Source of the DNA: Bolinopsis microptera
Taxonomy: Eukaryota > Ctenophora > Tentaculata > Lobata > Bolinopsidae
DNA: 61,455 bases
Assembly: GCF_026151205.1 (NCBI RefSeq)
Contig: NW_026971784.1
Coordinates: forward strand, 1 to 61,455
Direction: 5' to 3'
Position 1 is the first letter of the stretch. Each line of letters begins with the position of its first letter. The position numbers were made by a program, and so were the translations under genes. This document shows positions 3,996 to 33,184 of this stretch, in pieces. The notes beneath the pieces are model-generated. The model was given only the letters and a program-made list of their open reading frames with translations, searched no databases and was not told the origin of the DNA.

Positions 3996-4720
3996 TAAAT
4001 TTTGGAAGTATGTAGGGATATATATCTGATACCAATCGTATATACTAAAAATACTCTAGCACAATTGTAACTGCAGTTTTACAGAACTCTAAATGCTTAA
4101 TGAACACTCTTGCAGGTACCACCCGTATTCACACTCAGACCTGAGTTTAGTCATTTTCCAATACGAGATTGGGGACGGGTTCTATAAACAAACAAACAAA
4201 CAAATATCCGAATATTTAATTTTTACTACAGAATCCTCAAACCAGTAGTTTTGCCCCTCCTGTATAATGCCTTCAAGGAGGCCGGGGGTCTTCATGAAAT
4301 TTCTTTCGAAATTGATTTTATAGTTGTTTCTGGAACTAATAAAATTACAAAATCGTCGACATGTAACAATATTTATAGGTTTTTGACATACGTTGCATGC
4401 CACTTTTCGCGATATTTGTGATACGTAACATGTATCAAATAGGTTTGTATACTTTTTCCTGTACATAACAGGGGCAGGGGCCACCATTCATTGCTCTAAC
4501 CAGAGCCCTCTCGCTTGCAGTAGCGCGCGACCGCCGTAGGCGGCAAAAGAAACAAGCGCGTCACGCAGTACGCGTAGACACATGGCTATGTGAACACCAT
4601 TCACACTAGCACACTTTTGCTATAACAATACTTCACCGAGCACACTACTCAGCTCCACATGATCCACAAACTAACCATATTTGCCACCCACGTTTCTCAC
4701 TCCTAATTCATCATTTGTAT
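3996..4720. other. No recognisable gene
   Basis: AT-rich sequence with an AAAC simple repeat near 4190. A 101-codon minus-strand frame at 4182-4487 matches no family I know and has no coding-like composition. Confidence 0.5.
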
Positions 4721-4724
4721 TTGG

Positions 4725-5100
4725 TCAATGCTTGACCATTGTTAATGATCTGGCCCGGCGCGCGCTACTTCGTACACAGAGGGGCCTGAAACCAGGTTTT
4801 CGATCAAACGCTACCATTTGTAGTCAAACGTCGCCAACAGTTGCTCTCGTCCAATGAAATCGCTGCATTCTGCAAGTCATTATGCTTAATTGAATTACAT
4901 ATATTCGTATGCGAAGCTTGGCTTACATAATGCAGCGATTTCATTGGACGAGAGCAACTGTTGGCGACGTTTGACTGCAAATGGCAGCGTTTGATCGAAA
5001 ACCTGGTTTCAGCTCCCCCTGTGCGTAGCTCTTGCCATCGGGCAGAAGTAAGCGGCGCGCACTACTTCGAAGAAACTTAGACGAGTAACATCCGTCAAGT
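4725..5100. repeat. Dispersed GC-rich repeat split by a fold-back element
   Basis: The flanks of the fold-back element, including GGCCCGGCGCGCGCTACTTC at 4753 and the segment to about 5100 (GAAGAAACTTAGACGAGTAAC), match an uninterrupted copy at 46881-47005. Inverted or partial copies lie at 45826-46015 and 46590-46720. The family is rich in CGCGCG and non-coding. Confidence 0.75.
4775..5023. mobile_element. 249-bp fold-back MITE, probable 4-bp target duplication CGTA
   Basis: Two arms of about 95 bp (4787-4880 and 4927-5015) are near-perfect inverse complements. The termini are CACAGAGGGG and CCCCCTGTG. CGTA flanks both ends (4771-4774, 5024-5027), and the copy at 46881-47005 represents the empty site with a single CGTA, which supports insertion. 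No coding capacity. The superfamily is undetermined; four-base duplications occur in Chapaev-like and Academ-like groups among others. Confidence 0.75.
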
Positions 5101-6110
5101 CAATGCTATTCCCACTATTTTGCTTCACACTTAAAACACGCTTACATGTTTTGTACACAGTAAACATGAACACTTTGTAGGTTTACAACCTACCAGGACG
5201 CGCGCCGAGTTGGACTCGTCGCGTCGACGGTCCAATATATGGAACAGATATTTTACGAGTGGCGCCTTCGGCGGCGCGCGCTTCGCGCGCGAAAAGTGGC
5301 ATGCAACGTATGTCAATACAAATTTTCGACGCGCACTACGCGCAAAAGCATTTAGTTGTTATCAATTGGCACCCGCGCATTCATCATAAATTTCAAACAG
5401 CTATAACTCAGCGAGATTATGTCTGTTCTAGCTCATATTTTCACACCAAATATAAAATGATGTGATCTTATTGCTGACAACATATGAATATAATTTCTCT
5501 ATTTGCCTTAGAGTAATAGACTGTCAAAGTTTAAAACGCGCATTGGTATAGCACGTGACTAATAAGGCCAAATCTATACTTCTTAACATGTTATCGATCC
5601 TTAGACATCATACTATTGTGTCCAATTAGCGGTTAGGTCTCTAAACTTGTAGCAGAAAACACGCCTTTTTGCCCGTAAGAGCCTCTACTAAAATGCAAAT
5701 AATTGACATCGTATCGTGAATCAATCAAATATTTACACAATTTAAAATTAATTTTCAAAACACGTTTAGTTCAGGGATGAAGTTAAAAACAACTACAATA
5801 AACTAAGGGGTTTTGCCCCCCTTTTGTTATCTTCTTGCCTATATAACCACGTAGGGCAATAAAAGTCGTTCCCAACCTTGCGAATCTTTTTTAGCAAAAC
5901 AATATTTTTATTAAAACAAAATTTATATTTAGCTATAAGCGCGCGCCGCGCCCATATAAAACGGTAAACTTTAAATATTGTCAAGTGTCAAGATAAACAA
6001 GTTTTGCGAAATAATTTAGCATGCTGTCTTTGTAAGATATTACAATTGTACCCGTGCCAGTTCCAGGTGTGATGTGATGTATTCTCTTCCTCGTATGCCT
6101 TACATGTATT
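5101..6110. other. No recognisable gene
   Basis: Repeat-like, partly GC-rich sequence (CGCGCG clusters near 5220-5290). The piece around 5650-5695, with GCCCGTAAGAGCCTCTACTA, recurs inverted at 50403-50440, so it belongs to a dispersed repeat. Confidence 0.5.
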
Positions 6111-12013: not shown

Positions 12014-12494
12014 GTGAGTTAAACTTTCAATCCTTTGCCAAGAACATCTTCCTATATTTTAATACAGGCAATACGACATTAAATGCTCAAATTATGTCAT
12101 ATATTCTGTCTGCTGACTTTATGCACAATTTAAGAGTAAACAGTCTACTGATAAGAGTTCGAACGTAACAGAACGGAATACACGAAGCAAAACCCCTTCC
12201 AATAGAAACACTCCAAGTAATGAACGTCCAATCTGTCATAAAAATTATCGCTTTGTTGGAAATCTTACCTGATTAAGATTATCAATCAACTAATAATCGA
12301 TTTATACTTGATTGTTTTTAAATCGATCCTTAAAATATGTGTGTCACTTTTGATGGAAATTTGGTTTTATACTGTTCTTCAAAATTTTATGATTGCTGTA
12401 CGGTGTACAAAATATATTTGGAACACTCAACCTTTTACTAATAGTTAAGAAAAAACAACAGACCATTTAAGTTATTTATAGATGTCTTTTTCAG

Positions 12495-12853
12495 GTTCTG
12501 AGATACAGACGAAAGGGCATGTTTTGAATTCTACCAAATGTTTTATGTGTGACTCGGTGCAGACTACAATAAATGGTAAAAACATCAGAGAAAAGTACAG
12601 AATTTGTGAAGTTGAAAGGGCAAAACAGGTGCTTGTGGCTATAAAACATCTCAAAGATGAAAGTGCAGCGGTGCGGTTAGCTGATATAGACTCAGTCGAA
12701 CGTCTGATCGCACAGGATCTCTACTATCACAACAACTGTTTGGCGTTACTTTTATCCCGTTATCAAAGATTGGTTACGAAATGCCTTTTATGCGAGGAAC
12801 CTGTTGATAAATCACGTAATCTTTTGACCGTTGGACAGATTAAAGCACTAATC
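12495..12853 (+). pseudogene. Transposon protein, large exon, part before the LINE
   Basis: Open from an acceptor at 12494 (TTTTTCAG). Contains [10 protein letters not shown] and KCLLCEE, two further CxxC pairs, and YYHNNCL. The frame stops being transposon-derived at 12853, where TAATC marks the LINE insertion; it continues in the same phase at 13989. A misleading ORF of 445 codons starting at 12482 runs through the junction into LINE sequence. Confidence 0.7.
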
Positions 12854-13819
12854 CCGCAAGGTTCAATTCTAGGTCCAATTCTGTTTATACTTTACACAAA
12901 GGAGCTCAATCAGATCGCAAAGAGACATGGATTTAACATCCACATGTACGCAGATGACACTCAACTGTACATTGAGTTTAACCCACTATTTCGAGATCTC
13001 TCAACAATCGAAGAGAGAATAACAAATTGTTTTGAAGATATTAAGACCTGGATGACCCAAAATAAACTCAAACTGAACCAAAACAAAACAGAAGCTCTTG
13101 TAGTACAGACCAAGAACAGTTACTCTTCATGTCCAGTCGATTCAATACAACTTGACAATGCAGCTGACCCTGTGGATGCATCCCGCACAGTGAAAAGTTT
13201 AGGTGTCCTATTTGATCAATTCCTAACATTTGAAGACCAAATAAATTCAATTATCAGTTGCTGCAACATCCATCTGAGAAACCTTCGAGTTATAGGCTCA
13301 AAGCTTAACTATGATCTAAAAAGACAGCTCATTCACTGCTTGATCTTTTCAAAACTAGACTACTGCAATGGACTCTTATACGGTTTACCTGATCTTCTAA
13401 TAAAGAAACTCCAGAAGGTACAAAATTCCTGTGTTCGATTCTTGTTTGGTTGGAAAGCTATCAAAAAATGGGACAGTGTCACTCCATTCCTGAAAAAAGC
13501 CCATTTTCTTCCGATACGACAACGAATAGAGTATAAGATTGCTCTAACCGTGTTCAAATGCGTTAACAACATAGCGCCGGAGTATATCATCAAATGTATT
13601 GACATCAAAAGTCAACCTGTACGTGTACTAAGAACTGAAGAAGACTATTTCCTCCTAAATGTTCCTCCTATTTCAAACTATAGTAAAACCGAGAGAAGTT
13701 TCAGCTACTGCGGACCCTCTGTTTGGAATAAGCTTCCTTATCAATTGAGAACACTAACCGATATCGTCTTATTTAAAAAGAAACTAAAAACTCATCTCTT
13801 TGAAAACGTATTTGTATAA
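12854..13819 (+). pseudogene. LINE reverse transcriptase C-terminal half
   Basis: About 321 codons without an internal stop, starting in RT block 4/5. The YADD catalytic pair is present but fingers and endonuclease are missing, so the product could not retrotranspose alone. It is fused in frame to the upstream transposon exon, giving a chimeric ORF by accident. The lack of decay suggests the insertion is not ancient. Confidence 0.85.
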
Positions 13820-13983
13820 GTATCATGTATTACCTTTCTCATAAAATCCATACTTCATAAAAATAAGTTCTTATGTACATGTTACTCATGAGTCGCTTTA
13901 GATGGTTTGAACTGAATCTTTGGGTTTTGAGTTCTTTATGGCTATAAAGCGATGTATAAATTCCTACTTATTATTATTATTAT
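12854..13983 (+). mobile_element. 5'-truncated CR1/Jockey-type LINE inside the transposon gene
   Basis: TAATC at 12849-12853 and 13984-13988 flanks 1130 bp ending in a (TTA)n tail (13968-13983). The insert begins at the RT motif [11 protein letters not shown] and contains the catalytic box [10 protein letters not shown], then the LINE C-terminus ([11 protein letters not shown]...[10 protein letters not shown]) with a stop at 13819, then a short 3' UTR. Removing it with one TAATC leaves ALIAKSVDNY in frame. It belongs to a different family from the AlkB-bearing LINE. Confidence 0.9.
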
Positions 13984-13988
13984 TAATC

Positions 13989-16307
13989 GCTAAGAGTGTT
14001 GATAACTACGACGATGAACTAAGTAACAAGATTCGAGAGAAATTTGACGAAGAGCGAGAGTGTGTGAAATCATATTGCTATGCTCACAAGAACTGTGAAA
14101 TCACTTACATTTCCTCTGATTCTCCATCAACATCGAAAATATACGAAAATCAAGTAACTCCAATAATCGAAGAATTAATTGATAGAGAATATGGACTGCC
14201 AGTTTCAAGTATTCGGGATTTTCTGTCTGCAGAACACCCAGACGGCAAGTTTTACAATCACAAGATTAAAAAATTTGTTGTTGATAAATTTTCCGATCAA
14301 GTGTCATTCTGTAAACCATACAGGAAAAGCGACTCGGAAGTCGTGTATTCCTCCTCAACAGATGCTGCCTCGATGATCCAAAAGCTGCAAGTCCTGAACG
14401 AAGTGAAATCTGCAGGAAGAATTTTACGAACAAAGCTGAGAGGAATGACTTTTGGGCTTGAAGACAGATTTTGTGATGCTGTAGATTTGCAGACTGCTCT
14501 GAGGGATACAAGAATGCCGGAGTCCGTAATGGATTTTTTGGGGGGTTTGCTTAATATCAGCAAGGCAACATTCCTCAAGTATCAGAAGAGTGTGGCAACA
14601 GATACAATATCAGAAACTGACGATGAAATCGAAGATGAAACTGAATCAGTTTTAACAAACAGTCCGAAAAAGATTCTCAAAGCAAACTCCCTCTTTCAGG
14701 TTATGCATTATATGGCAAATAATGGAGAAATAAGAACACCTTTCCATATCATGCAAGCTCATGCAATTTACCATAAAAGTCACAGTAGGGAACTTATCAC
14801 AGCATCCAACCACCTGGGATTCTGCATTAGCTATCCAGAACTTTTGAGGCTGAGAGCGCTGTTAGGGCTATTTATCATGACCAAATACTTACAAATGAAA
14901 GTCTCGCTGCCGAGTAATTTTGATGAGAATCAGGAGACAAGTGTGGGGATAGATAATTTTGACCATAATGACCAATCATCGATAACTGGAAAGAACGAAA
15001 CCCACGACAGTGTCTTGGTCATGTATCAAACTGTACCGTTCAGTCAAAGAAACTACCGCCCTCCTACCAAAGGCAGAGTTTCCCACCATACGGATTTTGT
15101 AGTATCAGGCAGGAAGTACATATCAAAGTTGCCGTTCCAGAAATTGCTGCCATTTTACCTCAAAAGCAAGGAGCAACCTTTACCATCAAGCTTCAAATCA
15201 GAACGATTTCAATACGAAACTGATGAGAGAAAAGAAAAGGTACTTAATCTTACAAGGAACATATCAACTCCACTCCCAGAAACTCAGCAACTCACACATA
15301 TACCAACTTGGGCCGGTTGTGAAGTTCTCACATCAACTAGCAACGATGTACCGTTGAAAACGGTTGGATATCTCCCCATCTTTCCACACCCCATTACCAA
15401 AATAGAGACAGTTTACAGCCTTTTGCAGAACTGCGCTAGCATTGCAGCACTTTTGAAACAGAAGACACTGCCTGTTATATGCGATGAAGGAGTCTATCAC
15501 CTAGTGACGAAGATTTATCTCCAACAACCTGACGTCTTTGAGCGGATAATTCCTTTCCTCGGCGGTTTTCATTTGACAAAGTCTGCGTTACGTTGTGCTG
15601 GTAAGTTCGTTCGGGGCTCTGGGGTAGAAGACGCTTACATTGAGTGTAACATATTTGGACCGAAAACTGTCGAAGCTGTAATGAGTGGCTCTCATTATTA
15701 TCGGTCATTTGATGGTTTGATGATGCTAGGTGATGCACTTACTAAGCTCAAAATGGAAGCTTTCTGGAAAGAGAACTCTATGAACGACTACTCCATAGCA
15801 ATACAGAAACTTGATCAGCTGCAGTGTGCTCTTGTACAGAACCTCAAAACTGAGTCGACGACTTTAATTTCTGAACTGCAAACATGTAAAGAAGTGAAAC
15901 GACTAATGGATGATATCGAAGCGTTCTCAATCAAATGTAGTGAAAACTCATCACAATGTAGATTTTGGCTCAACTTTGTGAAAATCATCGACACAATTAA
16001 AGATTTTGTGCGTTCTGAGAGAGATGGGGACTTCTTCCTTAACATGAAAACTTTGGAACGCCTCCTACCAATATTTTTGGGCTGTGATGCGTTGAATTAT
16101 TTACGCTACGGATCTTTTCATCTTGAGCTATTAAAAAGGGCCAAAACAACCCACCCTGAACTCTATGATGCATTTATTCGAGGAAATTTCGTAGTAAAGA
16201 GAACACCTGGGTCGTTCAATGCTGTATCCCCAGACCTAGCTCTTGAGCAGACTATCAATAAGAGTGCCAAGAGTTCTCATGGGATAATTGGCAACAGTCA
16301 ACACTAA
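13989..16307 (+). pseudogene. Transposase-like region of the nuclease-bearing transposon
   Basis: 772 codons in phase with 12495-12853. N-terminal residues include ECVKSYCYAHKNC. The middle has a sequence signature I recall from repeated invertebrate proteins: LPVICDEGVYHLV (15466-15500), PFLGGFHLTKSAL (15553-15590), RGSGVEDAYIE (15610-15645) and HYYRSFDGLMMLGDAL. Conserved acidic residues in CDEG and SGVED are candidates for a catalytic core, but I cannot confirm a DDE triad. The ORF ends at 16307 after SSHGIIG, whereas related proteins, as I remember them, continue into the next part; a frameshift lies around 16270-16300. Confidence 0.6.
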
Positions 16308-18267
16308 ATCAGCTGATTATGTTGCGGAGTGGTGCCTGATATACCACGAAGAGCTCGCAATAACAAACGCATACAGAGAGATAACGAACTCCAATCAGTT
16401 AGGTAACTCTGAAATGCAAGTTCATCATCATCTTCGTCCATCAAAAACTAAAGAGATCAATAGTCATACTCGAAACCTCGCAGAGTACATAGGCTTACAG
16501 GGTAACCCTTTCCTCAAAGAACATCATGGTCAAGTTAAAAACATTGTGACGCAAGTTTATGCGGATGTATATATCGCTGATCAACATTGCCAATTCTTCA
16601 AACAAGCGGAAGAAAAATATAATGAATTTCACAGGCTTGTTTATGTTGATAAGACCAGGCTCTTGTCAGATAAGATCACAAAGCACAATCTCTTACCCAT
16701 TGATCACGTACCATCAGTTAAATTTGACGACAGTTCAAAAGCAGTCAAAAAGAATGAAAAGTCTTCAAGGTTGGCAATTAAAACTTTGAACATAGCCAAA
16801 GAAAAGAAAGGTGATCTGCGTGAAGTGTTAAAGTATGATCTTACTAGATATAATCCTCTATTTGATGGCCTGCTTATGGAGAAGCCCAGAAAACATGAAA
16901 TGTCTGGAGAAGTAGAAAACCGTGCAAAGCTGACAGTAGACGATTACAACTACCTTCCAGGTGAAAACAATGCTGTTGTTATTGACTTTATGTCTTTCAT
17001 CAGAGGCCAGAATCTTGACAAGGCTGTTCAAGAAGCTTCCGCGCCACTCTGTTTTAATCTAACCTGGAAGCATGTCTCTTGGACATTCGGTTCCATGATT
17101 GCTGAAGCGTTTGCAAGAATTTTGAAGAACAACCCAACTGCCGAGGTGTTTCATATCATATTTGATAGCTATCTTGACTCATCCTTAAAGAGTGGTGAAC
17201 GACGAATAAGGCTTGCCGAGACTAAGGGTGTGATCAGGCTTGCTATGATTAACGAAAACACAAAGGTACCGGAACAAATGGGGAAGTTTTGGCCTCTAAG
17301 TGATAATAAGGTGAAATTCCAACGATTCGCCAAGTCATATTTGCTTCATTTGGCCAAGCGAGTAAATAGACAATTGATAGTTAGCGGCACTGTAGATGGA
17401 GAAGATTCGATTCCAGCTCAACATCTGAACAGCGCTATGGATATTGCTGAAATAAGTGAACTTCAACTGCCATTTGAAGAGGCGGATATGAGGCTAATAC
17501 CTCACATTCAATGGGATGTCATTAACTGTTTACGGTCTTCAGTCACTGTTATTTCTGATGATACTGATGTCTTGATACTTTTGTTGTTCTACTTCAAACA
17601 TTTCAGTCAACAAGGACTACAAAAACTGTACCTTCAGAAGGGCCGAGGGAGTAACAAAAAGATGTTTCCTATACATACAATGTATTTGAACCTGGGGGAA
17701 CAATTCTGCAAGAATCTTTTGAAAGCTCATTTGGGTACAGGCGCTGACTACCTAAGTAAGATAGGGACTAAGAAGAGCAGCCTTAATGCTAACCCGGAAG
17801 TTGCATTAAAAAAGTTCGGAGAGAAGTTTACCCTGGATGACGAGCAAATTCAAGAAGCTGAGCAGTACTTAGTGAAGGTTGCTGCAAGCTGCAGGAGCAC
17901 GTGTCTAGCCAAAACCTTTGATGAGCTCAGGGTACTAACTTGGAAGAGAACCAGTTCAGTTCTTGAATTAGAACCTACTTCTCACTCTATCATAGAAGGA
18001 CACATCAAACGATGGTGGTTTTTGTACAAGGTATGCAGTGATCTTTTAGCGATGGATTATACCCACCTGGAACCAACAGATTTTAGTTGGGTAGATAACG
18101 AAGGTGAACTGTTCCCTTGCAAGAACTTGAATTTACTACCTGACGACCTGTTTAAAACTTGCAAGTGCAAAACAGGTTGTCAAAAGAAAGTATGTTCATG
18201 CTTTAGAGCAGAAGGACAATTAAAGTGTACTGACTATTGTCTTTGTGTCAACTGTAAGAATAGATAA
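16288..18267 (+). pseudogene. FEN/XPG-like nuclease with CXC tail (transposon-encoded)
   Basis: 659 codons open from a TTG at 16288 in the +1 frame relative to the upstream ORF, with no ATG near the overlap, so it is best read as the downstream half of one frameshifted gene. Motifs in order suit a PIN/FEN fold: VVIDFMSFIR (about 230-239), IIFDSYLDSSLKSGERRIR (about 290-308), LPFEEADMRL (394-403), VISDDTDVLIL (421-431) and LGTGADYLSKIGTK (482-495), matching the acidic clusters and the G-rich helix-two-turn-helix of FEN1/XPG. The last 35 residues are a CXC (Tesmin/TSO1-like) cluster of about nine cysteines, a probable DNA-binding zinc module. Confidence 0.6.
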
Positions 18268-20720: not shown

Positions 20721-21926
20721 GGTTCGATAATGAGTGGCATAATGACAACTTTAACAGTTTTGGACCATGCTAGATTATTGATAAAAACGTGGAATTTATG
20801 TAAACAAATACTTAATTACTTAAATATTGCCGTTTCCGTACGGCGCTATACGTAATGTATGTTAAAAGCGCGCCGCAGCTACTCCCTACCTCAACATTTG
20901 CGCGGGTTTCTTAAGCGCGCACGTACGTTTATTCTTGGCCGTTAATCAGACCCATGACATAACGCTATAGGTGGCAGTGACTGTAATTTTCTTCAACAAT
21001 TACTGAATTATCCATCCATAAAGTGATTTACAAAATGACACCTAAACCTCGTGTTTCGGTGTTCACTTAAACGGTACTTGGCGGCTGAACTGTGGTGTCT
21101 GACGTTTGCAGCTAGATCGGACTCTGCATGATATTGTATTAGCAAATTTGTATAGTGTATAATTGTTTAGTGTTTATAATACTCTGCAACCTGGTAGCAC
21201 GGCTGACACAAAAACAAAATGTTGGCCTGGCTTGTGCATAACCAAGTAAATAACACGCACTCCAATAAAAGCCGTCTGGAGAAACTCCGCAAAATGTTCA
21301 TTGTAGTCAACGGGCACAAAGAAGCACTACTAGCAATTGTGTCCTTTACCCTCCTACATAATTTGAACATTTTTGTGGCTAACTCATTGAACAACATCTG
21401 AATTAAAATGTGTCTAGTATTAAAAGATTCAGTAAGTAATTTTTTCATGTACGCTGTACACTGTAGTTAGTAAATCAAATCAAACTTTTTCGATCAGCCG
21501 CGCGCTGAACCAGTGTTGCACTAGGTAAAAATTGTGTATATTTTGTTCATTTTTGAGTGTAAATTAATTTATTAATTTATCACAAATTATTTTATTATAA
21601 TATAACCACTTATGTGAAATGGTTATTTTGACTTTAAATATTTGAACTAAATATGAATTGATTGTGGGTATAAAATAAAATTTGTTTTACTAATTTGTTT
21701 TAAACTAATTACAACACTACAAATCTATTACATTTATTGAGGTATGAGATATGATAGACGAGCGTAAGTGTTGACGTGCAAAGGACTGCTGTGAGTGTAC
21801 TTGAAGATTACTCATCCTCCTCCTTCTCATCAAAACTATTCTCATCAAAACTACTATCTGGACTGAAGGTATTGCGTTTACAGTGTTTATTGTGCTTCTG
21901 AACATTGAACTCTTGATAATATAACT
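20721..21926 (+). other. Probable 5' UTR/flank of the AlkB-bearing LINE; no gene recognised
   Basis: Contains no convincing reading frame. The 5' end of the LINE cannot be placed; GC-rich sequence near 21490 (CAGCCGCGCGCTG) is followed by AT-rich sequence up to the ORF1 start. Confidence 0.4.
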
Positions 21927-23801
21927 ATGTCAAATAATCAGAGCTCAGACATTAGTCTCCACTTTTGTGAGCGCCCTTTAGAACATTTGAACTTTTCATT
22001 CCAGTCTGAAAAATCAGAGAACTGTAACAATTGTCTGTCAAAAGACATCAAGATTGACTTTTTAGAAAAAAAGTTGTCTTTATTGAATGAAATTATCAGA
22101 ACTAGTGATCTCATTGCTCAGTACAATGATAGTCTCATATCAGATCAAACTCAAATACAAGAACAGAGTTTTAAGTGTGAAAATTTGCTGCCGAACTTAT
22201 CAGAGGAGATTGAATGTGAGATCATAACCATTACCCCTCAGTCACACGTTGTTATCAATCAAGTAGAAGCGTTTGATGTAGATGACATTGTTGTGGAAGA
22301 TGTTGTATCGGACAGTTTGTTTGTTGACAACGATGACGTGGACAAGGTTGTTCCACAGGAGGTTGTTGGAAACGAGATTGTTATCAGTGAGATTGTTGTT
22401 AACGAGGTTATGGCAGACGAGGATGATGTGTCTGATCTCCCTGTATCTACTGCTACTGGTGAATCACGGATCAACACCCCTAAGCCCAGAGACAAATATC
22501 CAAACTTGGTCCCTGCCCCTGTCTACGATCCTATAACACCGGGGCCAATGAATATATCTGTAACTTGTTCCCCATCACCAGTGAAACCAGTTACCCTACT
22601 AGATGATGGTCCATTCTCTAAATTTTCACTTGATCTATTAATGGAAGAACTTGAGTTCAGTCACGGTTTTAAAAACAGGAAATCGGTTTATTTTGGTGAC
22701 TTTCCCTATGAGTATTCAGGTGCAACACATGACCCAAAAAGTGTACACAATGATTCCTACCTTGCTAAACTCAGCTCCTACATTAATGTGATATTACCCA
22801 ATTTCAGACACAATAGTATTCTCGTCAATCTATATGAAACTGGAGCAGAGTTCATGCCAGCTCATAGCGATTCTGAATCATGTATTGTAGAACACTCTGA
22901 TATTGTAACCATTTCACTTGGTGCGACGAGAACACTGCAAATTAGATCAAACGGCAGCAATGAAGTTGTTGGCTCTGTGCAGCTTCAGCATGGAGATGTC
23001 TTCATCATGTCCAAATTGTCTCAGGCTGACTTTCAACATGAGATACTGCCAGACGAAATGTGTGATGAACCCCGGATCAGCATCACCTTAAGACTGATGA
23101 AGCCCCCTAGGATCACTCAGTCAACTGAGTTTGGTCTGCGTTCACCGCCCCCACCCATCCCTCATTCAGGACACAAACTGACAGACTCTTCTTCACCTGC
23201 ACTCTCAGTTTGCAAACAGCCAGCCAAAGCTTCACAAAAGTCTGTCCTATTCATAAGCAGCTCTATGTTCAGGTTTCTTGATGCGGACAAGTTATCATCG
23301 TCCACTGTTAGTGCTAGTAAACTGTTTTATCCTGGGGCTGATGCCAAAGTAATGTTAAATAAACTAAAAACTGACCTACACTCCGTTCCATCCCCATCTA
23401 TTATTTATATTATGACAGGAACTAATAATGTGAACACAGTCTATTTTGGCTCAAAGTCACTGAAGGATGCAGCGGGTGACATTAGTAATCTCTTAAATTA
23501 TCTCAAGTCAGTGTATCCGAATGCAACAATTAATGTTCTCAATATTCTTCCCAGGAGTACAAAAGGCCGCAATGATGTTGTGGCAGAGCTGAATAAGATT
23601 ATTAAGGATATGTGTAGCAAAGATTCTTGTTTTAATTACATTAGCACCCATAATTTATTTAACTATAATAGAAGTGGATTCAGGAAAGAATTTTATTTTG
23701 CCAGACCATCTGCAAAAATATCTGATAACTGTCACCTCAATACAAGCGGTGTTATTCGACTTGCTAAATTTCTGAAGTATTGGGCCCATAAGCAAGTTTG
23801 A
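21927..23801 (+). CDS. LINE ORF1: AlkB-like dioxygenase fused to SGNH esterase
   Basis: 624 residues from ATG at 21927. Residues 1-110 carry a CNNC pair and a short predicted coiled coil (FLEKKLSLLNEII); 110-215 are acidic, valine-rich linker. Residues about 215-395 form an AlkB-type 2-oxoglutarate/Fe(II) dioxygenase: ILVNLYETGAEFMPAHSDSE supplies the HxD pair (H313, D315), FQHEI the distal histidine (H371) and EPRISITLR the RxxxxxR pair (R383, R389) that binds 2-oxoglutarate. Residues about 437-624 resemble an SGNH hydrolase: VLFISSSMF (block I serine), MTGTNN (block III G-x-N) and DNCHLN (D600, H603). An ORF1 esterase is known from CR1-type LINEs; an added AlkB domain is unusual. Inferred role: RNA binding, chaperoning or demethylation in the retrotransposition particle. 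Confidence 0.85.
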   Translation: MSNNQSSDISLHFCERPLEHLNFSFQSEKSENCNNCLSKDIKIDFLEKKLSLLNEIIRTSDLIAQYNDSLISDQTQIQEQSFKCENLLPNLSEEIECEIITITPQSHVVINQVEAFDVDDIVVEDVVSDSLFVDNDDVDKVVPQEVVGNEIVISEIVVNEVMADEDDVSDLPVSTATGESRINTPKPRDKYPNLVPAPVYDPITPGPMNISVTCSPSPVKPVTLLDDGPFSKFSLDLLMEELEFSHGFKNRKSVYFGDFPYEYSGATHDPKSVHNDSYLAKLSSYINVILPNFRHNSILVNLYETGAEFMPAHSDSESCIVEHSDIVTISLGATRTLQIRSNGSNEVVGSVQLQHGDVFIMSKLSQADFQHEILPDEMCDEPRISITLRLMKPPRITQSTEFGLRSPPPPIPHSGHKLTDSSSPALSVCKQPAKASQKSVLFISSSMFRFLDADKLSSSTVSASKLFYPGADAKVMLNKLKTDLHSVPSPSIIYIMTGTNNVNTVYFGSKSLKDAAGDISNLLNYLKSVYPNATINVLNILPRSTKGRNDVVAELNKIIKDMCSKDSCFNYISTHNLFNYNRSGFRKEFYFARPSAKISDNCHLNTSGVIRLAKFLKYWAHKQV

Positions 23802-23967: not shown

Positions 23968-24997
23968 TTGGAAAAATTTTCATGCTCTCACAGCAGTTCT
24001 TGCATTAACCCGTGCATTAGTAAAATCACAGTTTCATACCATGCCAAAAAGCTTGCAGTGGGACATTGCAACATGCAGGGAGGACTAACAGGTATGCCAA
24101 AATGTCTTGAAATCCAAGATCTAATCTGGAAAGAGAAATTAGATGTTTTATGCCTGAATGAAACAAATCTTAAGTCGGATATTGACTCAGCCAGTCTAAA
24201 CCTACCCAAGAATTTTACTTTTATCCGCAAAGACCGTCCTAACGACAATGGTCATGGGGGATGTGGCATTCTCATCAGTGAGCACATAAAGTTTAAAATG
24301 ATTCAACTAAACTTAGTTTTGCAATATGACCAAATCGAGGCTATTTGGATCCATCTTACAGATTGCAATATTTTCATCTGCTGTTTCTACAGATCTGAGT
24401 TGTTTAGTCCTCTTGACAAATTTTTAGATTATATGACAGACTGCATGATGAGTATAGGAAGTAAGAATGTTATTTGGCTGGGTGATGTAAATGTAGACCA
24501 AAACAACATCAGCAGTATGAACTATAAGAAATTAGACATTACAATGAAAATGTTTGGAATGGTACAGGTAGTTCAGGATATTACCCGCATTGCTAAACTA
24601 GGAAACAGAATCACAAAGACCACAATCGATGTTGTCATAACAAACACTTACTCCAAGTTTCTTGACTGCAAAGTCCTTGATGATTGTATAGGAGATCATC
24701 AGGTCGTAAAGTTCATTGTCGATTTCAATGTGCATAAGGCCTCAAAATTCAAGAAGTTACTAATAAGAGATCACAGCAAAATGAATGTTACTGCTCTTAA
24801 AGAATTTTTGGAAACCTGTGATTATAGACCGATAATAGATTCAACTAGTCTGAATGATGCAGTTGATGGTTTAAACGAACATATTGATCACTACTATGAT
24901 CACTTCTGTCCAATTAAACAAATTAAGTGCCATAGTGATTACATCCATAAGCCATCTCCAGAATTTTTAGATAGTAAGAAATTGAAAGGGAAACTTT
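23968..24997 (+). pseudogene. LINE ORF2, endonuclease part, cut by copia
   Basis: APE-family endonuclease motifs in order: GHCNMQGGL (metal-binding N), LCLNETNLK (catalytic E), CCFYRSELFSPL (Y/R), WLGDVNVDQN (GDxN), TTIDVVITN and GDHQVVKF (terminal DH). It would nick target DNA to prime reverse transcription. The open frame starts at a TTG after a stop; the first in-frame ATG (24073) lies inside the first motif, so ORF2 may be made by reinitiation or another non-standard start. The frame is interrupted at 24997 by the copia LTR and resumes in the same phase at 30387. Confidence 0.85.
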
Positions 24998-25130
24998 TTT
25001 TAATTCAATAAAGTGAGACAGTAACACTAGTGGATGATAGAAACATAAACTTCAAACGAGGAATACAAATCAAGTCAGACAAAGCCTCCTGGAGTTTCTG
25101 CCATCCTGTAAATGGTATATAAGATTAACA
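24998..25130 (-). repeat. copia 3' LTR
   Basis: 133 bp, read on the minus strand from TGTTAATCTTATATACC to TTGAATTAAAA. No difference from the copy at 30249-30381. The left end sits directly on ACTTT. TATATA near its start and AATAAA on the opposite strand are the only signal-like sites seen. Confidence 0.95.
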
Positions 25131-25680
25131 TCAGTCCTCTTTTAGTTTTTCTTTCTGTTTCTTCACGGTATCCGGCTTTATTAGGCGATCTTCACGGATA
25201 CCAGAACATGTAGCAGGAGAACTTATTCGTTAGGCGTTGGCAGCTGTTTAGAAATGCTTCTTCTGTAGATCTTTATAAATCTTCTTTCTTCTGTGTATAA
25301 ATGGCCATATGTGAATGATGATTAAATGAGATGGGTGTGATATGAGGATAGATTATGCAATCCTCTCAACTAACTTAAAAGCCAGTGGTAATGAACCAAA
25401 ACAAACAAATCAATACCAGCTCCACAAAGAGTTATGCAGGCTAAAAGGCTGCCTCATAAAGGAGGACTTCAGAGGGAGGTTAAACAGGTGTCTCAACTGA
25501 CTAATATATATCCCCTTTTCATTTTTTTTTTTTTTTTCATTTTTTTTTTTTTTCAGTTATACTAAACACAGTTCAGGTTACTGACCGGGACTTCGGATTT
25601 TTATATTATCATTTTACAACAACCCAGGGGAACCAGGCTATTGGCCGGGACTTCGGTCTTTAAATTATTATTATTATTAT

Positions 25681-25719
<39 letters not shown>

Positions 25720-25942
25720 TAAACATTTTTATAAACATAGCAAAACTAGTCAAATAACTTAGTTTGCACTTTAAAAATCCCATGAAACTCACACGCACTG
25801 ATTTTAAAAACTAATCTGCAAAAGTAAAAAATAAAGATTCTGACTCAAAACAAAAATGACATTAAAATGTATGAAAAAGCTAAAAATATAAATGATAAAT
25901 CCATAAATAAAAAATAAATTCGATGTTCACTCTTTAAAAATA
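25131..25942 (-). other. copia 3' non-coding region
   Basis: About 800 bp between the gag-pol stop and the 3' LTR. A purine-rich tract (AAAACTAAAAGAGGACTGA on the minus strand) abuts the LTR and may prime plus-strand DNA. Contains T-runs at 25520-25555 and 25680-25716, and a repeated GGGACTTCGG core at about 25589 and 25647. No ORF. The length is large for a copia element; part may be an insertion. Confidence 0.6.
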
Positions 25943-28900
25943 CTAGTCCCTCTCAAAACACATACGCAGACTTTGAGAACTAGGCCCTCTCTTAGTCAAA
26001 ACATCAGCAGGCATCGTCCTTGAGGGCATAAAGTTAACAGTTATTTCACCCTTCTCAACCATTTCCCTTAGTGATGCCATGGTAACTATCAGTCTTTTTT
26101 CAATGGGGTCCTTTGTCTTCTGTACAAGCTCTAGAAGTCCTTTATTGTCAATAAAACAGTCTATGGTCACATTTAAAGAATCTCCCAGTATTTGTTGTAG
26201 TGTTTGCTGAATAAAAATGGTGTGATCAGCCGCTTTCAGGAGTGCAAGGCTTTCAGCGGCTAAAGTACTGTAACAGACTCTGTCCAACTTTACAGATTTC
26301 CAACAGACAGGGTTTTTGACTCTACCATCTTTATCCGAAATAAGTATCAGATACCCACACTGACTACCATTGTTACTAAGATTTCCAAACGATGCATCAC
26401 AGTATGTAAGTAGTCTTACTCCATTCTTTATGTTAGGCAGTTCTCTGAAGGTCAGTGGGGCATCTTCATCAGTTTTAAGCTTTTTGACTATCTTGTTGTG
26501 AAGCATTATGTCTGAGACGTTGGGATCTTTCAGATTATTGCTCAACTGACAAGCATCAAACGAAATATCTGGTCTGGTTTGGACAGATAACCAGATAAGT
26601 TGTCCAACACCTGATCTGTACTGTACATACTCTTCGTGAGTCAGAGCATGTGTTTTCTGGCTTCTTCTGTTACTTGATAGTCCTATGGTCTTTAAAGCAC
26701 TGATATAATCTGACTGTCCAACAGTGATTTCATATGAGATTGGATCTTGTTCCACCTCAAGTCCAAGATATGTGAATCGCGATGCTTCCTGTGACTTAAT
26801 CTCAAATCCATGCAGCACATCTTTGTGAATATTAGACTCAAAACCTTTGGTCCCTGCATAGATGAAGTCATCTACATGTACAGTCATTATTCCTGCAAGA
26901 TCTTCTTTGTCAACTCTTGAAAAGAACAGAGCATCATCATATAAACATTTCCTTAAACCAGCTTGTTCACTGTGGTCTTTTACATTTCTGTACCACATCT
27001 TTGCAGCATCTGACAGTCCATAAACACATTTGTTCAGCTTCCACAGTATTCCTGGTTTATAGCATTCCTTTGGAGGGGTAAGATAAACTAGTCGCTCAAT
27101 TGGTTTACCTTGTAGAAATGCTGAGGTTATATCAAGAGAATGAATAGGCCACTTCATTGATGCTGCTACTGTGAATAGAAGTCTTAGAGATTCTTTTCGA
27201 CAAGTAGGACTGACTCTTTCGGTACTATCAAGAGGAATTTCCTCAAAACCTCGAGCTACCAAACGGGCCTTTTTCTTATGACCATTGTCATTTGTGACCC
27301 ACCTTGTCGAAATGGGGACAAACTGATCATCTACTTCGTGAGCCTCAACCTCTTCATACACATTGTTTTGCTTCCATTTTTCGATTTCGTCAGTCTTCTG
27401 TGACTTATAGGGGTCAGTGTTTAACACTTCGATACTGACCTTCTTCTTCTCATACTTTGACTTAGCTTTGCAGAACTTCTGCTCCTTTGTAGACATTGAT
27501 TCCTCTACATTAGTTTCGTTGCTTTGTGGTATATTATCTGTGCTTGCAGTATTATTATCATCCTCTTCAGCAGGAGCAATATCGAAAGCGTTCAACAGAA
27601 CATCATTTTTCAGCATTTGAGTTGCATTGTAAAATTCTTCAACAGTGGGATTAGGCTCATCTGGTGGATCGGTCCCACTTACTTCGGAAACATCTTTTGA
27701 GTACAGTTCATTTACATTGACAACATGAATCCGGTGGCATCGAACAATATACCCACCATGTCTTACAACTACAACTTTCTTGTCCACACCTATAACTGTT
27801 CCTGGTCCTCGCCATCGCTTATCATCATTTCTTTTGTAGTATACCATATCACCCGACTGTATCTCATCAGTGTACACTTCTCTAGTTTTTGATCTAATGG
27901 CTCGTCTGATCATCTCACTAGCTTCGCTTTCCATCATTCTTTTTCGAGCACTGTAGATGGCAGAGATGTTCTTGGCAACAGTTTCACTTGGACTCTCATC
28001 TTCAACAATCGTTGGACTAGCATAGGGATCATCAATAGAAGTGAGAGATGGATTTTTGCCAAAGATTAACTGATATGGCGAGAAACCATTTACATTTGCC
28101 AAAGTGTTCTTGGCATGACAGGCCCATGCTAAAGCAACTTCAACTGAGCATTTAGTATCTTCCATGATCTTTATCATACTGTTAGACAAAAGGGCATGGT
28201 GCCGTTCTACAAGGGCATTGCTCCAAGGTGCTTCAGCTCCAGTAGTGATGATATGAACGTCGAATTTCTCACAGAGGTCAACAAAACTTTTGTTAACATA
28301 TTCCCCTCCATTGTCACTCATGAACTTCTTCGGTGGTCCAAAAGTGTTGATCCAGTGTGTAAAGACACTTTCCACAATGGTTTCCTTGTCTTTTGACCTG
28401 ATAACTTTTGCAGCAGAGAATCTGGTTTTATGGTCAATCATGTGCTGGATGTAAATGTTTTTATTCTTGTCGTACACCTTAATATCCATGGCAACGGTAT
28501 CATTGAAGTCTTTGGCTAAAGGCATACAGACTACTGGACGATTATTCGGTCGCTTGTATCTCTTGCACACATCACAGTTAGACGATACTGTGTCAATCTC
28601 TCGAGCAATTTCCTTGGTAAGCTGTCCTGCTGTTCTTAAGAGTGACTTTAACTTTTCAGGTGGGGGATGGGCGAATTGCTTATGTAGCTTAATCGCTATC
28701 TTTCTTTTGTCAGTACTTTCCATGGTCAGGTTTACAATTTCCTCTCCTGATTTACATAAGCAGACTTGTTGATGGATAGTATTCTTGCTCAGAGGGATGC
28801 TACAGTGTCCTGATTCATTGAAGATGATTTTCTGCTTTACACCAAAAGCCTTCACTGTGTCATCTCCAAAGTCCAATACCATTCTAGCATCTTTCATTGA

Positions 28901-30235
28901 CTGTTTGCTAATCAGTAATGGAATCTGATCATCAACAACTTGTGCCACAATGTTCACCTGTTTGTCACATACAACGGCTGGGAATGTGCAGCATGTCCTT
29001 GACTTTGATGGTGCATTATCTCCAAATTTAAACGATACATGTTTCTCTTCATAGCACACCTTAATGAAATCTTCTGGAGACAGCGACTGAAGATAGACTT
29101 TCAACCATTCCTTTCCACAAACCGTTTTGTTGCATCCACTGTCAAGAACTGCTAACCCAAAGTTGTCACTGGTAAATTGGTCCATAACATTTGAGTTCTC
29201 TTCTTGGGCAGGAGCATTCATAAAGAGATTTACATTCTCACTCGTTACCTGATTTCCACTTTTGTTTATTCTGCGGCGTTCTGGACAATCTCTAGAAAAG
29301 TGGTAAATCGACTTGCAAACATTACAAGTAAAATGCCGCCCATATTTGTCTGTTGGGTTCATTTTTCTGTCACTTCTGACACCCGCAGCTACCTGATGTT
29401 GACTTTCCTGCTGTTGATTCTGTTGTCGGTATCCTCTGGCTCCTCTACCATTTCCTCTTCTAAAGCCATATCCCCGGTATCCTCTTCCCGAATAGCCACT
29501 TCTTCCTTGGCTGTAATATGCATGCTGCTCCATTTCCTGAGCATTCAGTACTTCATTTTCATTTTCGTATTCATCATACATATTAAACTGATTTTCAATA
29601 CAGGAGTTACCAGTATAAAATGTAGAGTCTTCTTTAACTACACCAATCATTCTCTGGTGTGAACTTTCTGGATCTTTCATAGTTGTGATCTTCTTTATCG
29701 TTTCTTTCATGTTAGTGTATGTTAAGTCGCCACACATAGTAATGGCAACAGAATACTTGTAATCACTAACATTACAACTTCTAAGTAATTCATACGCTAG
29801 AACAGGTTGTGGAAGCTTAATATCATGCTCTTCCATTCGTTTTACAACTTTTTCGAATGACGAAATAAACTCCTTGACATCTTGGCTTCCTTCCCGACTT
29901 AACTTTCTGAACATGTCATAAGTCTTGAACTTTTCCTTAGCCAAATCTTCAAGATAAATTCCATCAAGGACCTCCAGGAGGCAGTCTAATCCCGATGTCT
30001 TTACTTCAGCACCTTCTACTGTGTCTGTTCTGCCATTTTGTAATACTTCAAGTGGAACTTCCACTGCCTCAGACTTAGCCTTCTGAGGTAACATAAAAAC
30101 AATACATCCTGCTTGACGCTTTTCTTCGATCAATGTGGTTGCCGACCACAATTTCACTTCTTTCTTGAACAAAAGATAAGAATCTCCTAACTTAGGGATA
30201 GGTGGTCCACTACTGTTCACTTGATTTTCCGACAT
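25943..30235 (-). CDS. copia Gag-Pol polyprotein
   Basis: 1430 residues, uninterrupted. Gag N-terminus with an RG-rich stretch (about 255-285) and CCHC knuckle CNVCKSIYHFSRDC (about 310). Aspartic protease LAVLDSGCNKTVCG (about 365). Integrase: HHCC zinc site (H..H..CDVCKRY) and catalytic D in AMDIKVYD, D in FMSDNGGEYV (about 640), E in NALVERHHALL. Reverse transcriptase: ARLVARGFEE, SLDITSAFLQG and catalytic VHVDDFIYAG (about 1120). RNase H: TYCDASFGN (about 1280), STLAAESLAL, DNKGLLELV. The order PR-IN-RT-RH is diagnostic of Ty1/copia. The ATG overlaps the primer-binding region. All catalytic residues look intact. Confidence 0.95.
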   Translation of the reverse strand: MSENQVNSSGPPIPKLGDSYLLFKKEVKLWSATTLIEEKRQAGCIVFMLPQKAKSEAVEVPLEVLQNGRTDTVEGAEVKTSGLDCLLEVLDGIYLEDLAKEKFKTYDMFRKLSREGSQDVKEFISSFEKVVKRMEEHDIKLPQPVLAYELLRSCNVSDYKYSVAITMCGDLTYTNMKETIKKITTMKDPESSHQRMIGVVKEDSTFYTGNSCIENQFNMYDEYENENEVLNAQEMEQHAYYSQGRSGYSGRGYRGYGFRRGNGRGARGYRQQNQQQESQHQVAAGVRSDRKMNPTDKYGRHFTCNVCKSIYHFSRDCPERRRINKSGNQVTSENVNLFMNAPAQEENSNVMDQFTSDNFGLAVLDSGCNKTVCGKEWLKVYLQSLSPEDFIKVCYEEKHVSFKFGDNAPSKSRTCCTFPAVVCDKQVNIVAQVVDDQIPLLISKQSMKDARMVLDFGDDTVKAFGVKQKIIFNESGHCSIPLSKNTIHQQVCLCKSGEEIVNLTMESTDKRKIAIKLHKQFAHPPPEKLKSLLRTAGQLTKEIAREIDTVSSNCDVCKRYKRPNNRPVVCMPLAKDFNDTVAMDIKVYDKNKNIYIQHMIDHKTRFSAAKVIRSKDKETIVESVFTHWINTFGPPKKFMSDNGGEYVNKSFVDLCEKFDVHIITTGAEAPWSNALVERHHALLSNSMIKIMEDTKCSVEVALAWACHAKNTLANVNGFSPYQLIFGKNPSLTSIDDPYASPTIVEDESPSETVAKNISAIYSARKRMMESEASEMIRRAIRSKTREVYTDEIQSGDMVYYKRNDDKRWRGPGTVIGVDKKVVVVRHGGYIVRCHRIHVVNVNELYSKDVSEVSGTDPPDEPNPTVEEFYNATQMLKNDVLLNAFDIAPAEEDDNNTASTDNIPQSNETNVEESMSTKEQKFCKAKSKYEKKKVSIEVLNTDPYKSQKTDEIEKWKQNNVYEEVEAHEVDDQFVPISTRWVTNDNGHKKKARLVARGFEEIPLDSTERVSPTCRKESLRLLFTVAASMKWPIHSLDITSAFLQGKPIERLVYLTPPKECYKPGILWKLNKCVYGLSDAAKMWYRNVKDHSEQAGLRKCLYDDALFFSRVDKEDLAGIMTVHVDDFIYAGTKGFESNIHKDVLHGFEIKSQEASRFTYLGLEVEQDPISYEITVGQSDYISALKTIGLSSNRRSQKTHALTHEEYVQYRSGVGQLIWLSVQTRPDISFDACQLSNNLKDPNVSDIMLHNKIVKKLKTDEDAPLTFRELPNIKNGVRLLTYCDASFGNLSNNGSQCGYLILISDKDGRVKNPVCWKSVKLDRVCYSTLAAESLALLKAADHTIFIQQTLQQILGDSLNVTIDCFIDNKGLLELVQKTKDPIEKRLIVTMASLREMVEKGEITVNFMPSRTMPADVLTKRGPSSQSLRMCFERD

Positions 30236-30248
30236 TTCCTGCTATCAC
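30233..30248 (-). promoter_or_regulatory. copia primer binding site
   Basis: Minus strand next to the 5' LTR reads GTGATAGCAGGAAATG, close to TGGTAGCAGAGGATG, the complement of the metazoan initiator Met tRNA 3' end. The final ATG is the gag-pol start, so priming site and start codon overlap. Confidence 0.65.
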
Positions 30249-30381
30249 TTTTAATTCAATAAAGTGAGACAGTAACACTAGTGGATGATAGAAACATAAA
30301 CTTCAAACGAGGAATACAAATCAAGTCAGACAAAGCCTCCTGGAGTTTCTGCCATCCTGTAAATGGTATATAAGATTAACA
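30249..30381 (-). repeat. copia 5' LTR
   Basis: 133 bp, identical to 24998-25130; followed on the plus strand by the ACTTT target duplication at 30382-30386. Confidence 0.95.
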
Positions 30382-30386
30382 ACTTT

Positions 30387-32377
30387 ACCGTAAATTTTTA
30401 ACACACAACAAGAACAGACGTATACATCCAAATGGTCTTATACACTGTAATAAATGTGACTCATTATGGATGGCATATAAACGGCAGAGAAACTATTCAA
30501 CCTATTTGTCTAGAATTAATAGGAAGACTAACTTAGCAACAGAACTGAAAGCCAAGTGTGCCATGAATGATCTAAAGGGTGTATGGAAAACGATAAAGAC
30601 AGCATCAAATCTGCCTGTTAAAGCTAACAATATCAATAACAATCTTGATGCTGAAACCACCAATAAATATTTTGCTGAAATAGGTCCAAAGATCCAAGCA
30701 GAAGTGCAGCTGGAAAATGAAAATGAATTTCTATCTTATCTACAAAATGAGCAGATTGACAACGAGACCAGCTTGAATAGCTTTACTGAAATAACTGAGT
30801 CCAATATCTTAGACTATGTGGCAAGTATCCCTTGTAGCAAATCCACTAATGATCATATACCATTGAGAGTGTTTAGACAAATTTTACCTGCATTTATTGC
30901 TCCATTAACACATCTTGTAAATTTGAGTTTATCCAGTGGCATCATGCCAAACAGCTGCAAGGTTGCAAAAGTCACCCCAATCCATAAGGATGGTGATACT
31001 GAGAATCCTAGTAATTATCGACCAATCTCAATTTTACCGATTCTTGGAAAGTGCATCGAATTTTGTGTGAACTCCCAACTGACTCAATATCTTGATGAAA
31101 AGGGAATACTTTCAGAGCATCAATATGGTTTCCGTAAAGATCACTCTACAACTTATCTCATGTTAGATCTGTTTGATCGTATATTTACTGCTAAGAACAG
31201 TGCCAAGCATCCTGCAATTATCTTCCTGGACATCAGAAAGGCATTTGATACTGTTAACCATGATATTCTCATTCAAAAGCTGAAGCATTATGGAATAAAA
31301 GATACTGCATTGAGCTGGTTTAGGAGCTTCCTCACAGATAGATTACAGCAAACTAGAGTTGGGAGTAGGATAAGCAGTTTACATTCATTGAACTCTGGAG
31401 TGCCTCAAGGAAGTATATTAGGACCAATTCTATTCAGCATTTTTATCAATGACCTGCCTAATGCATGCCTATTTTCTAAACCTTATCTATTTGCTGATGA
31501 CGGTGCATTATATTTTGACAATATATCTAGAGGAAACTATGGTAACATCAAACAAGAGTTGAAATTAGTTATCAGATGGCTTCAGGCTAATAAACTATCC
31601 CTGAATAATGAAAAAACAAAACTAATGATCCTTGACTCTAAGCCTAACCTTGATGCCATCCTTGTTGAAATTTGTGATGACCTTACTTTGGTAATCTGTG
31701 AAACTAAATCCCATAAGTACCTTGGACTTATAGTTGACAGCAGATTGACATTTAATGAACATATTGATAACATTAAGAAAAAGATATCCAAAAGAATTGG
31801 TGCTATGTATAGATCAAAAAAACTTCTCCCTCTTAAGTTCAGGAAGATGTTTGCTAATGCACTTATGTTGCCACATTTTGACTACTTAGACACCATCTGG
31901 TCAAGAACATATAAAAAACGACTAGGAGAGTTAGATATCATGTACAAAAAGGTTGCTAAAATAGCCCTAGATGTAAACATCAGAGAGAGGTCGGTTAATG
32001 TATACAAAAATATGGGATGGCTTCCTCTCCATTTGAGACGACAGGTTCATCTTAGCTCATATATGTACCGTATAATCAATGAAACATGTCCAAAGCATTT
32101 TATCGGGAAATTCTCGTATATTTCTGGTGGATCACGTGAGGCAGAAAACTGCAATCTTTATACTCCTAAATCAAGATCTCACAAGGAGTTTAACTATCTA
32201 GGAACTAAGGCCTGGAACATATTACCAAAGTCCCTTAGAGAGTGTGACGACGTTAAGAAATTTTCTAAGTTATACAAAGAAACTCTTATGAATATGTTGC
32301 TAACTGATGAGAATTACCAAGGGGATAACTCTTACGATAAATTCATGATCCCACCCAACACTAGCCAATGTATCTAG
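30387..32377 (+). pseudogene. LINE ORF2, reverse transcriptase part after the copia insertion
   Basis: Continues the frame of 23968-24997 (first codon split across the target duplication). An ATG-initiated open frame runs from 30470. RT motifs: [59 protein letters not shown] and catalytic PYLFADDGALYF. The C-terminal region contains ISGGSREAENCNLY and ends at 32377. Joined length would be about 1006 residues, usual for CR1/Jockey ORF2. Its C-terminus is closely matched by the minus-strand fragment at 9685-10017. Confidence 0.9.
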
Positions 32378-32977
32378 GCAGTTATGTTATTTCGGTTAAG
32401 TTATCTCAGTACATAAGTGAATCCAATCTATCCCCTGCAATCAAAGTATTTCCATGCCTATTAAGCTATTACAGGAAATTAGGAACATCAGTGGAAAGGT
32501 GCACTGTCAATCATTATTGCTCCATACCTCCAGTCCTCCTGTTATGTGCAATTCTCACTGTATGCTCCTCATTTGTATCAATTATATTGATGCTACATTG
32601 TTATTGAATATGAAATAATTTTCAACCGTATTAATTTATTAACTTATTGTAAATAGCAAGTTTGACAAAGGGATTACGTTTATTTTACCCGGAGTTCGTT
32701 TAAGTTTAGTATTGTAAATAGTTAATTTGACGAAGGGAATACGTCTATTTTACCCTGAGTTATGTTTTAGTTCAATCTTGACACAATTTTAAAATTATAA
32801 TTTAATTATTTTATATATATGTATTGTCCATAACTAGGGTGGCCTGCTAACAGAACCATGATCTGCCTTGATTCATCCTTCAGCACAGAGAAAAGCTCCT
32901 TTTTTTATACATTATGATTACAGAGGATCTGATATTTAGATATATATTGCTGTGCTGTAAAAATTGACTTTATTTAT
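32378..32977 (+). other. LINE 3' UTR and flank
   Basis: AT-rich. A tandem doublet (TTGTAAATAG...TTTGACRAAGG) sits at about 32644-32779 with a period near 68 bp. The 3' end of the LINE is probably between 32780 and 32850; no clear tail. TTTA repeats occur near 32970. Confidence 0.5.
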
Positions 32978-33184
32978 TTATTTATTTAAAATTTGTTTTA
33001 CTCTAGCAGATACATCAAGCTGAGCTTGGTCACAATGTGACCATGTTATAGTCTTAGGGTTGAGAAAGTCACCCTCATTTACCTTCTGTAGCTGGAGTTC
33101 AACTTTCACATCATGACATACCTCACTCAGGAGATTCGCCATTGTGTCTCTGATGTTGTGGGTCATGGGGACTAAGTCAAACAA
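32978..33184 (-). pseudogene. R2-type LINE endonuclease fragment, minus strand
   Basis: Reads HNIRDTMANLLSEVCHDVKV and later AQLDVSAR, the RHN and RLD motifs of the restriction-like endonuclease seen at 10026-10821. Matches 19961-20110 more closely than the plus-strand copy. Too short to act. Confidence 0.65.

Follow-up and report, generated by a model that had tools for sequence, protein, structure and literature searches.

An AlkB-type dioxygenase domain next to an SGNH esterase-like domain in the ORF1 of a ctenophore LINE

Organization of the element

The window (the whole stretch of 61,455 nucleotides of Bolinopsis microptera DNA that was analysed) carries an uninterrupted ORF of 624 codons (21927..23801), which extends from ATG 21927 to TGA 23801 exactly as described in the initial annotation and lies on the forward strand, as do all features below unless otherwise stated. 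The protein predicted from this ORF1, labelled P0001, contains an N-terminal helix, an AlkB-type Fe(II)/2OG dioxygenase domain and an SGNH-fold esterase-like domain, and the motifs PAHSDSE, FQHEI, EPRISITLR, SSSMF, TGTNN and DNCHLN succeed one another in the order claimed. The presence of this AlkB-SGNH fusion upstream of an APE-type endonuclease and a reverse transcriptase (RT) is confirmed, and its reading as the ORF1 of a LINE that recruited a putative demethylase domain is supported. The helix (residues 34-80, 22026..22166), predicted by AlphaFold2 with a pLDDT of 54-80 in 10-residue blocks, is a possible coiled coil in which the heptad count gives at best 6 of 13 or 6 of 14 positions; neither an RRM nor a zinc knuckle is found in P0001 by Pfam at E up to 0.1.

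The element is bordered by a 16-nt target-site duplication, TAAAATTTGTTTTACT, located at 21676..21691 and exactly repeated at 32987..33002; among 2000 simulated pairs only 5 have a shared word that long. The 5' UTR of 235 nt (21692..21926) begins at about the point where the match with other copies starts. An upstream match is present in 27 of the loci L002-L030: in 26 of these it begins at 21677-21709 and in the remaining one, L021, at 21737; L025 and L028 have none. At the other end, the 3' UTR (32378..32986) terminates in a (TTTA)n tail, with five TTTA units at 32969-32988, and the copy L002/L034 is 99.9% identical to the element up to position 32988 of the window. A 3' simple repeat and a target-site duplication, the insertion signature of LINEs, are thus both present.

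The first part of ORF2 (23968..24997), open after a stop at 23956, matches the endonuclease profile PF03372 at 2.5e-5, with 24.6 bits vs a cut-off of 24.5, and the second part (30387..32377), which runs to the stop codon, matches RVT_1 (PF00078) at 3e-37 and shares 66% identity over 620 aa with the RT of P0067, a gene model of the ctenophore Mnemiopsis leidyi. The two frames form a single ORF2, interrupted by a Ty1/copia LTR retrotransposon on the reverse strand (24998..30381), whose gag-pol (25943-30235) has RVT_2 (8.7e-31) and rve (9.6e-11) domains. The copia LTRs (24998-25130 and 30249-30381) are identical, measure 133 nt each and are accompanied by a 5-bp duplication, ACTTT, so that the insertion is recent; other copies of the element (e.g. 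L002 to L005) cross the copia site uninterrupted. The order initially assigned to ORF2, APE and then RT, therefore holds as two successive frames, not as one open frame, since this copy has the copia inside. When the copia and one of the two ACTTT repeats are left out, the element measures 5906 bp. Between 19000 and 33500, no LTR-like repeat pair was found other than that of the nested copia. The element is a recently active LINE, and its ORF1 type and domain order suggest a CR1/L2-like affinity (Jockey superfamily).

The AlkB and SGNH domains

The AlkB domain (residues 217-393, 22575..23105) is matched by PF13532 over residues 261-389 at 3.6e-18, with 66.9 bits vs a cut-off of 31.2, as the initial proposal had anticipated. 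This profile, the match of human ALKBH3 to P0001 by sequence (8.9e-15) and the AlkB fold of the predicted structure rule out a chance motif. Among the matches listed, the profile ranks ALKBH3 first (6e-24), followed by ALKBH2 (4e-22), E. coli AlkB (1.3e-6) and ALKBH5 (2.7e-3), while by fold the top matches are the structures of ALKBH2 bound to double-stranded DNA and of ALKBH3 bound to single-stranded DNA. By sequence, the domain thus appears nearest to ALKBH3/ALKBH2 among these matches and not to the m6A-type ALKBH5, a resemblance that does not fix the substrate. ALKBH2 and ALKBH3 are cellular repair enzymes that remove 1-methyladenine (m1A) and 3-methylcytosine (m3C), lesions that prevent base pairing and halt polymerases. 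They are the closest solved relatives by both sequence and fold and their metal- and 2OG-binding residues align with those of the ORF1 domain; in contrast to it, they are not fused to an esterase, and the identity in structural alignments is 21-30%.

The metal ligands H313 and D315 of the HxD motif (22863..22871) and H371 (23037..23039), together with the 2OG-binding R383 and R389 (23073..23093), are kept in 19/19 genomic copies. In a 114-row alignment, whose counts omit two AlkB-less rows and the fragments without the site, H313, D315, R383 and R389 are kept in all 111 ORF1s spanning them and H371 in 110 of 111, the exception being P0067 with N. R251, G257, Y261 and Y263 align with the same residues of ALKBH3 and are conserved in at least 99% of the 109-110 ORF1s spanning them. 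The spacing of 6 from R383 to R389 is the same as between R277 and R283 of ALKBH5, as given in the available passages of PMC9289625.

The SGNH fold of the C-terminal domain (residues 437-624, 23235..23798) is present in the predicted structure of ORF1; at the level of profiles the assignment is less firm, the two GDSL/SGNH Pfam matches of P0001 (1.1e-4 and 5.6e-4) both lying below the curated cut-off. In particular, Lipase_GDSL_2 (PF13472) gives 23.2 bits vs a gathering cut-off of 32.9, which is passed by the relatives P0093 (36.9) and P0082 (34.8). S446, G470, N500, D600 and H603 occur in block order and are kept in 19/19 copies; in the 114-row alignment, S446 is found in 114/114 rows, N500 in 111/111, and D600 and H603 in 108/109. 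Block I reads SSS and not GDS, with G in 13/114 and D in 16/114 rows at the corresponding places.

By sequence, the similarity to PDB 4c1b, which we take to be the esterase of the zebrafish element ZfL2-1, is weak (0.084 with P0001, 1.3e-5 with the profile). The esterase (type IV) ORF1 of ZfL2-1 shares with the window's ORF1 an N-terminal helix, which is a coiled coil in ZfL2-1, and the SGNH fold, and in CR1/L2 esterase LINEs as in the window ORF1 is followed by an ORF2 with APE and RT. The order of the catalytic residues is also the same (S143, G165, N195, D279 and H282 in ZfL2-1, according to the accessible parts of PMC3905857 and PMC4120745); the differences are the AlkB domain, which in the window lies between the N-terminus and the esterase, and the replacement of GDS by SSS. 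Membrane or lipid binding has been proposed for the ZfL2-1 esterase, and esterase ORF1s are reported across many animal phyla, in the passages available of PMC3905857.

Copies, subfamilies and relatives

A search of the genome (264.65 Mb, 232 contigs) with P0001 gave at least 81 matches, a lower bound because 71 of the 977 first-look candidates were scored. The window's own family (A) accounts for 39 of the 81 rows, 30 of which were taken as L001-L030; subfamily B accounts for 14 rows (41-44% identity), subfamily D for 5 (36-37%) and subfamily C for 23, divided into 13 AlkB rows at 50-53% and 10 SGNH rows at 38-40%. Twenty full-length stop-free copies, covering residues 1-622 or 1-624 at 98-100% identity, are distributed on 12 contigs. 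These copies all carry the fusion and, with the selection data below, rule out a separate AlkB insertion limited to the window copy, an outcome that the initial annotation had recognized as contrary to its reading.

Selection was evaluated on 19 of the 20 full-length copies, excluding 10 partial loci, 51 further rows and L018, the last because its match ends at 622; compared with the window, each of the other 18 full copies has 5-19 differences over 1872 nt. Over the whole ORF1, 28 synonymous and 31 nonsynonymous distinct changes correspond to a pN/pS of 0.31 (p 1.2e-5). The ratio is 0.14 in AlkB (8 synonymous, 4 nonsynonymous; p 0.0011, with 12 changes only) and 0.24 in SGNH (9 and 8; p 0.0045), and reaches 0.44 in the N-terminus (9 and 15; p 0.046) and 0.75 in the linker (2 and 4; p 0.52). 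Selection thus maintains the two enzyme domains, and the dN/dS comparison initially suggested reveals purifying selection with H313, D315, H371 and R383 unchanged.

One locus was read for each of the other subfamilies. In L031 (B), an ORF1 with AlkB and GDSL precedes a frame that matches RT and, weakly, an endonuclease; L032 (C) has the same domains in ORF1, followed by an ORF2 in two frames with RT and endonuclease; L033 (D), whose ORF1 has AlkB and matches GDSL at only 0.016, continues with an endonuclease frame (PF03372, 1.1e-8). The fusion is thus upstream of an endonuclease in all three loci, with RT frames in two of them. After the endonuclease part, L033 also contains on the reverse strand (3225-5855) a GIY-YIG frame and an RT frame, which are Penelope-like. 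Identity among the ORF1s of the four groups ranges over 32-55%, and the eight AlkB and five SGNH residues that were checked are present in every one. The ORF1s of L031 and L032 are 55% identical as proteins and 69% as DNA over 1216 nt, whereas in ORF2 and the region beyond the identity reaches 97.0% (1170 nt) and 95.6% (1673 nt); this combination of near-identical ORF2 and divergent ORF1 points to an apparent exchange of ORF1 from one element to another. The ORF2 shared by these two loci rules out B and C as independent LINE lineages, and L031 begins with 58 nt that have 96.6% identity with the 5' end of the window element. The mosaic fits the reticulate evolution of ORF1 described in the available text of PMC4120745.

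Protein searches gave 113 matches at first and then 65, 21 of them new, and scans of viral and prokaryote contigs revealed no relatives. With an E limit of 0.01, 131 of 135 proteins (P0001 included) match PF13532 and 76 match PF13472; three proteins of this set (P0131, P0132 and P0135) look like cellular AlkBs. Mnemiopsis leidyi is the only organism named among the relatives of both searches, and its gene model P0067 combines AlkB, a partial SGNH and RT; together with the loci of the same genome, it bears out the ORF1-ORF2 order predicted for relatives. The longest contig measures 5.5-7 kb in 19 of the 113 relatives and 2-3 kb in 46, lengths that hint at whole elements. The distances of AlkB and SGNH correlate, with a Mantel r of 0.76 over 119 of the 135 rows compared with 0.19 in the best of 2000 permutations.

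Two relatives, P0093 and P0098, have kept the N-terminus, linker and SGNH without AlkB. Their position inside the AlkB-bearing tree, beside the AlkB-bearing P0027 (support 85/70), indicates that AlkB was probably lost at least once, so that it seems dispensable for some elements; such a loss, which had been named at the outset as evidence against the proposal, was indeed seen, and only in this sublineage.

In three distant proteins (P0114, P0133 and P0134) AlkB is ahead of SGNH, with a PHD finger in front in P0134. Judged from domain matches, PHD-AlkB-SGNH is a second putative architecture with AlkB in the same place. Five cellular AlkBs are separated from 30 LINE AlkBs (26 of the first and 4 of the second type) by one branch with 100/100 support, as a single origin of LINE AlkB would predict. 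In mean pairwise identity of AlkB, however, the two types (33-37%) are scarcely nearer each other than the second type is to four cellular AlkBs (25-36%), and the SGNH domains of the two types are only 24-26% alike; on AlkB, P0129 separates from the three remaining second-type rows, not significantly (AU p 0.357).

Possible roles of AlkB in a LINE

The reading that we favour, with a probability of about 0.55, is that ORF1p is bifunctional and that its AlkB most likely repairs the RNA template in the particle of a CR1/L2-like LINE. The N-terminal helix would perhaps mediate self-assembly; in the LINE ribonucleoprotein, AlkB would strip methyl groups of the Watson-Crick face (1-methyladenine, 3-methylcytosine) from the template before or during reverse transcription, perhaps also clearing the single-stranded DNA made in target-primed synthesis, and the C-terminal SGNH-type esterase would act separately. 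Since such lesions stop a reverse transcriptase, the element would benefit from carrying its own template repair, and the clearing of the template by AlkB is what we infer from this block to polymerases and from the packaging of the element's RNA that is presumed for ORF1 proteins (PMC3905857). A young LINE family of this kind suggests an element that cleans or unmarks its own genetic material while it is copied.

Unmarking would be the main purpose if AlkB erased host methyl marks on the transposon RNA (m6A, m1A) or DNA (6mA) in order to evade recognition or silencing. We consider this unlikely, although the purifying selection on AlkB speaks for it. No host mark on the AlkB-SGNH LINE is known to us. 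A precedent is the orchid Ty3/gypsy element Gypsy_Pa_2799, a retrotransposon that likewise encodes an AlkB-type dioxygenase, with m6A demethylase activity on RNA and RNA binding in vitro and a proposed role against marking, as reported in passages of PMC9289625; similarly, mouse ES cells without host ALKBH1 have more 6mA on young L1s, with silencing (from the available part of the review PMC4982230). However, the orchid domain groups with ALKBH5 (same passages of PMC9289625), whereas the ORF1 profile is nearest ALKBH3/ALKBH2 and much weaker for ALKBH5, and the removal of m6A by ALKBH5 is reported to inhibit human LINE-1 jumping in the accessible text of the review PMC12211846.

An action on DNA, in which AlkB repairs the single-stranded target or the first-strand cDNA during target-primed reverse transcription, would agree with the DNA-bound ALKBH2 and ALKBH3 structures that are the best fold matches; it is rather improbable, as a predicted fold match cannot separate RNA from DNA and RNA is the presumed cargo of ORF1 proteins (PMC3905857, as above). 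Far less credible is an AlkB fold that has no catalytic role and is kept only to bind nucleic acid or as a structural part: RNA-binding regions are required in ORF1 proteins and P0001 has neither of the two sought with Pfam, but the metal and 2OG residues conserved in 19/19 copies and in at least 110 of 111 ORF1s exceed what binding alone should require. That ORF1 is only mimicked, by a host AlkB gene, a chimeric assembly or an insertion in one copy, is refuted by the 20 full-length stop-free copies on 12 contigs, by a homology that begins and stops at the element's own borders, by the further ORF1 subfamilies of the same genome and by the relatives in other datasets.

The AlkB domain of the LINE has parallels in other selfish agents. 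Plant RNA viruses of the Alphaflexiviridae, Betaflexiviridae and Closteroviridae also copy RNA and carry AlkB, with structural matches to the ORF1 domain; unlike in the LINE, their AlkB is part of a polyprotein and no reverse transcription is involved. To our knowledge, no esterase is fused to the AlkB of plant viruses. RNA repair has been proposed for it, as stated in the available text of PMC9289625. The orchid Gypsy_Pa_2799 differs from the window element in being an LTR element with a separate extra ORF that is ALKBH5-like, in contrast to an ALKBH2/3-like domain inside the ORF1 of a LINE. The parallel with viruses and orchid suggests that RNA-copying parasites have repeatedly recruited the same chemistry.

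AlkB in a retrotransposon is already known from the orchid, and esterase and PHD ORF1s from PMC4120745 and PMC3905857 (in the passages available). The esterase-like ORF1 of the window, because of AlkB, falls outside types I-IV (RRM/CCHC, Tnp22, PHD or esterase) of PMC4120745, type V being unclassified in the accessible text, where 'alkb', 'dioxygenase' and 'oxygenase' occur 0 times; likewise, 'AlkB' and 'oxygenase' are absent from the available text of PMC3905857. No AlkB inside a LINE is described in the literature passages on AlkB that were covered, subscription papers and Repbase reports aside. For the LINE esterase only lipid or membrane roles have been proposed (PMC3905857, in part), and a second catalytic domain with known chemistry offers a direct test of whether RNA methylation or alkylation limits retrotransposition. 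More tentatively, and with some doubt, there may be a class of animal LINEs with at least two ORF1 types (helix-AlkB-SGNH and PHD-AlkB-SGNH) in which a demethylase acts as proofreader of the RNA template; if so, the removal of RT-blocking methyl groups would belong to the normal course of non-LTR retrotransposition in such lineages.

Other putative mobile sequences lie elsewhere in the window. Two long frames of 795 and 659 aa, adjacent at 13920-18267 and weakly matched by DUF6589 and the CXC domain, are perhaps a mobile-element gene pair, and at 12482-13819 an N-terminal piece without Pfam match is joined to the partial RT (RVT_1, 3.1e-13) of another element. At 54683-56905, frames that encode CCHC-like motifs and an aspartyl protease of the gag type (PF13975, 3.5e-8) are a remnant or part of an LTR element.
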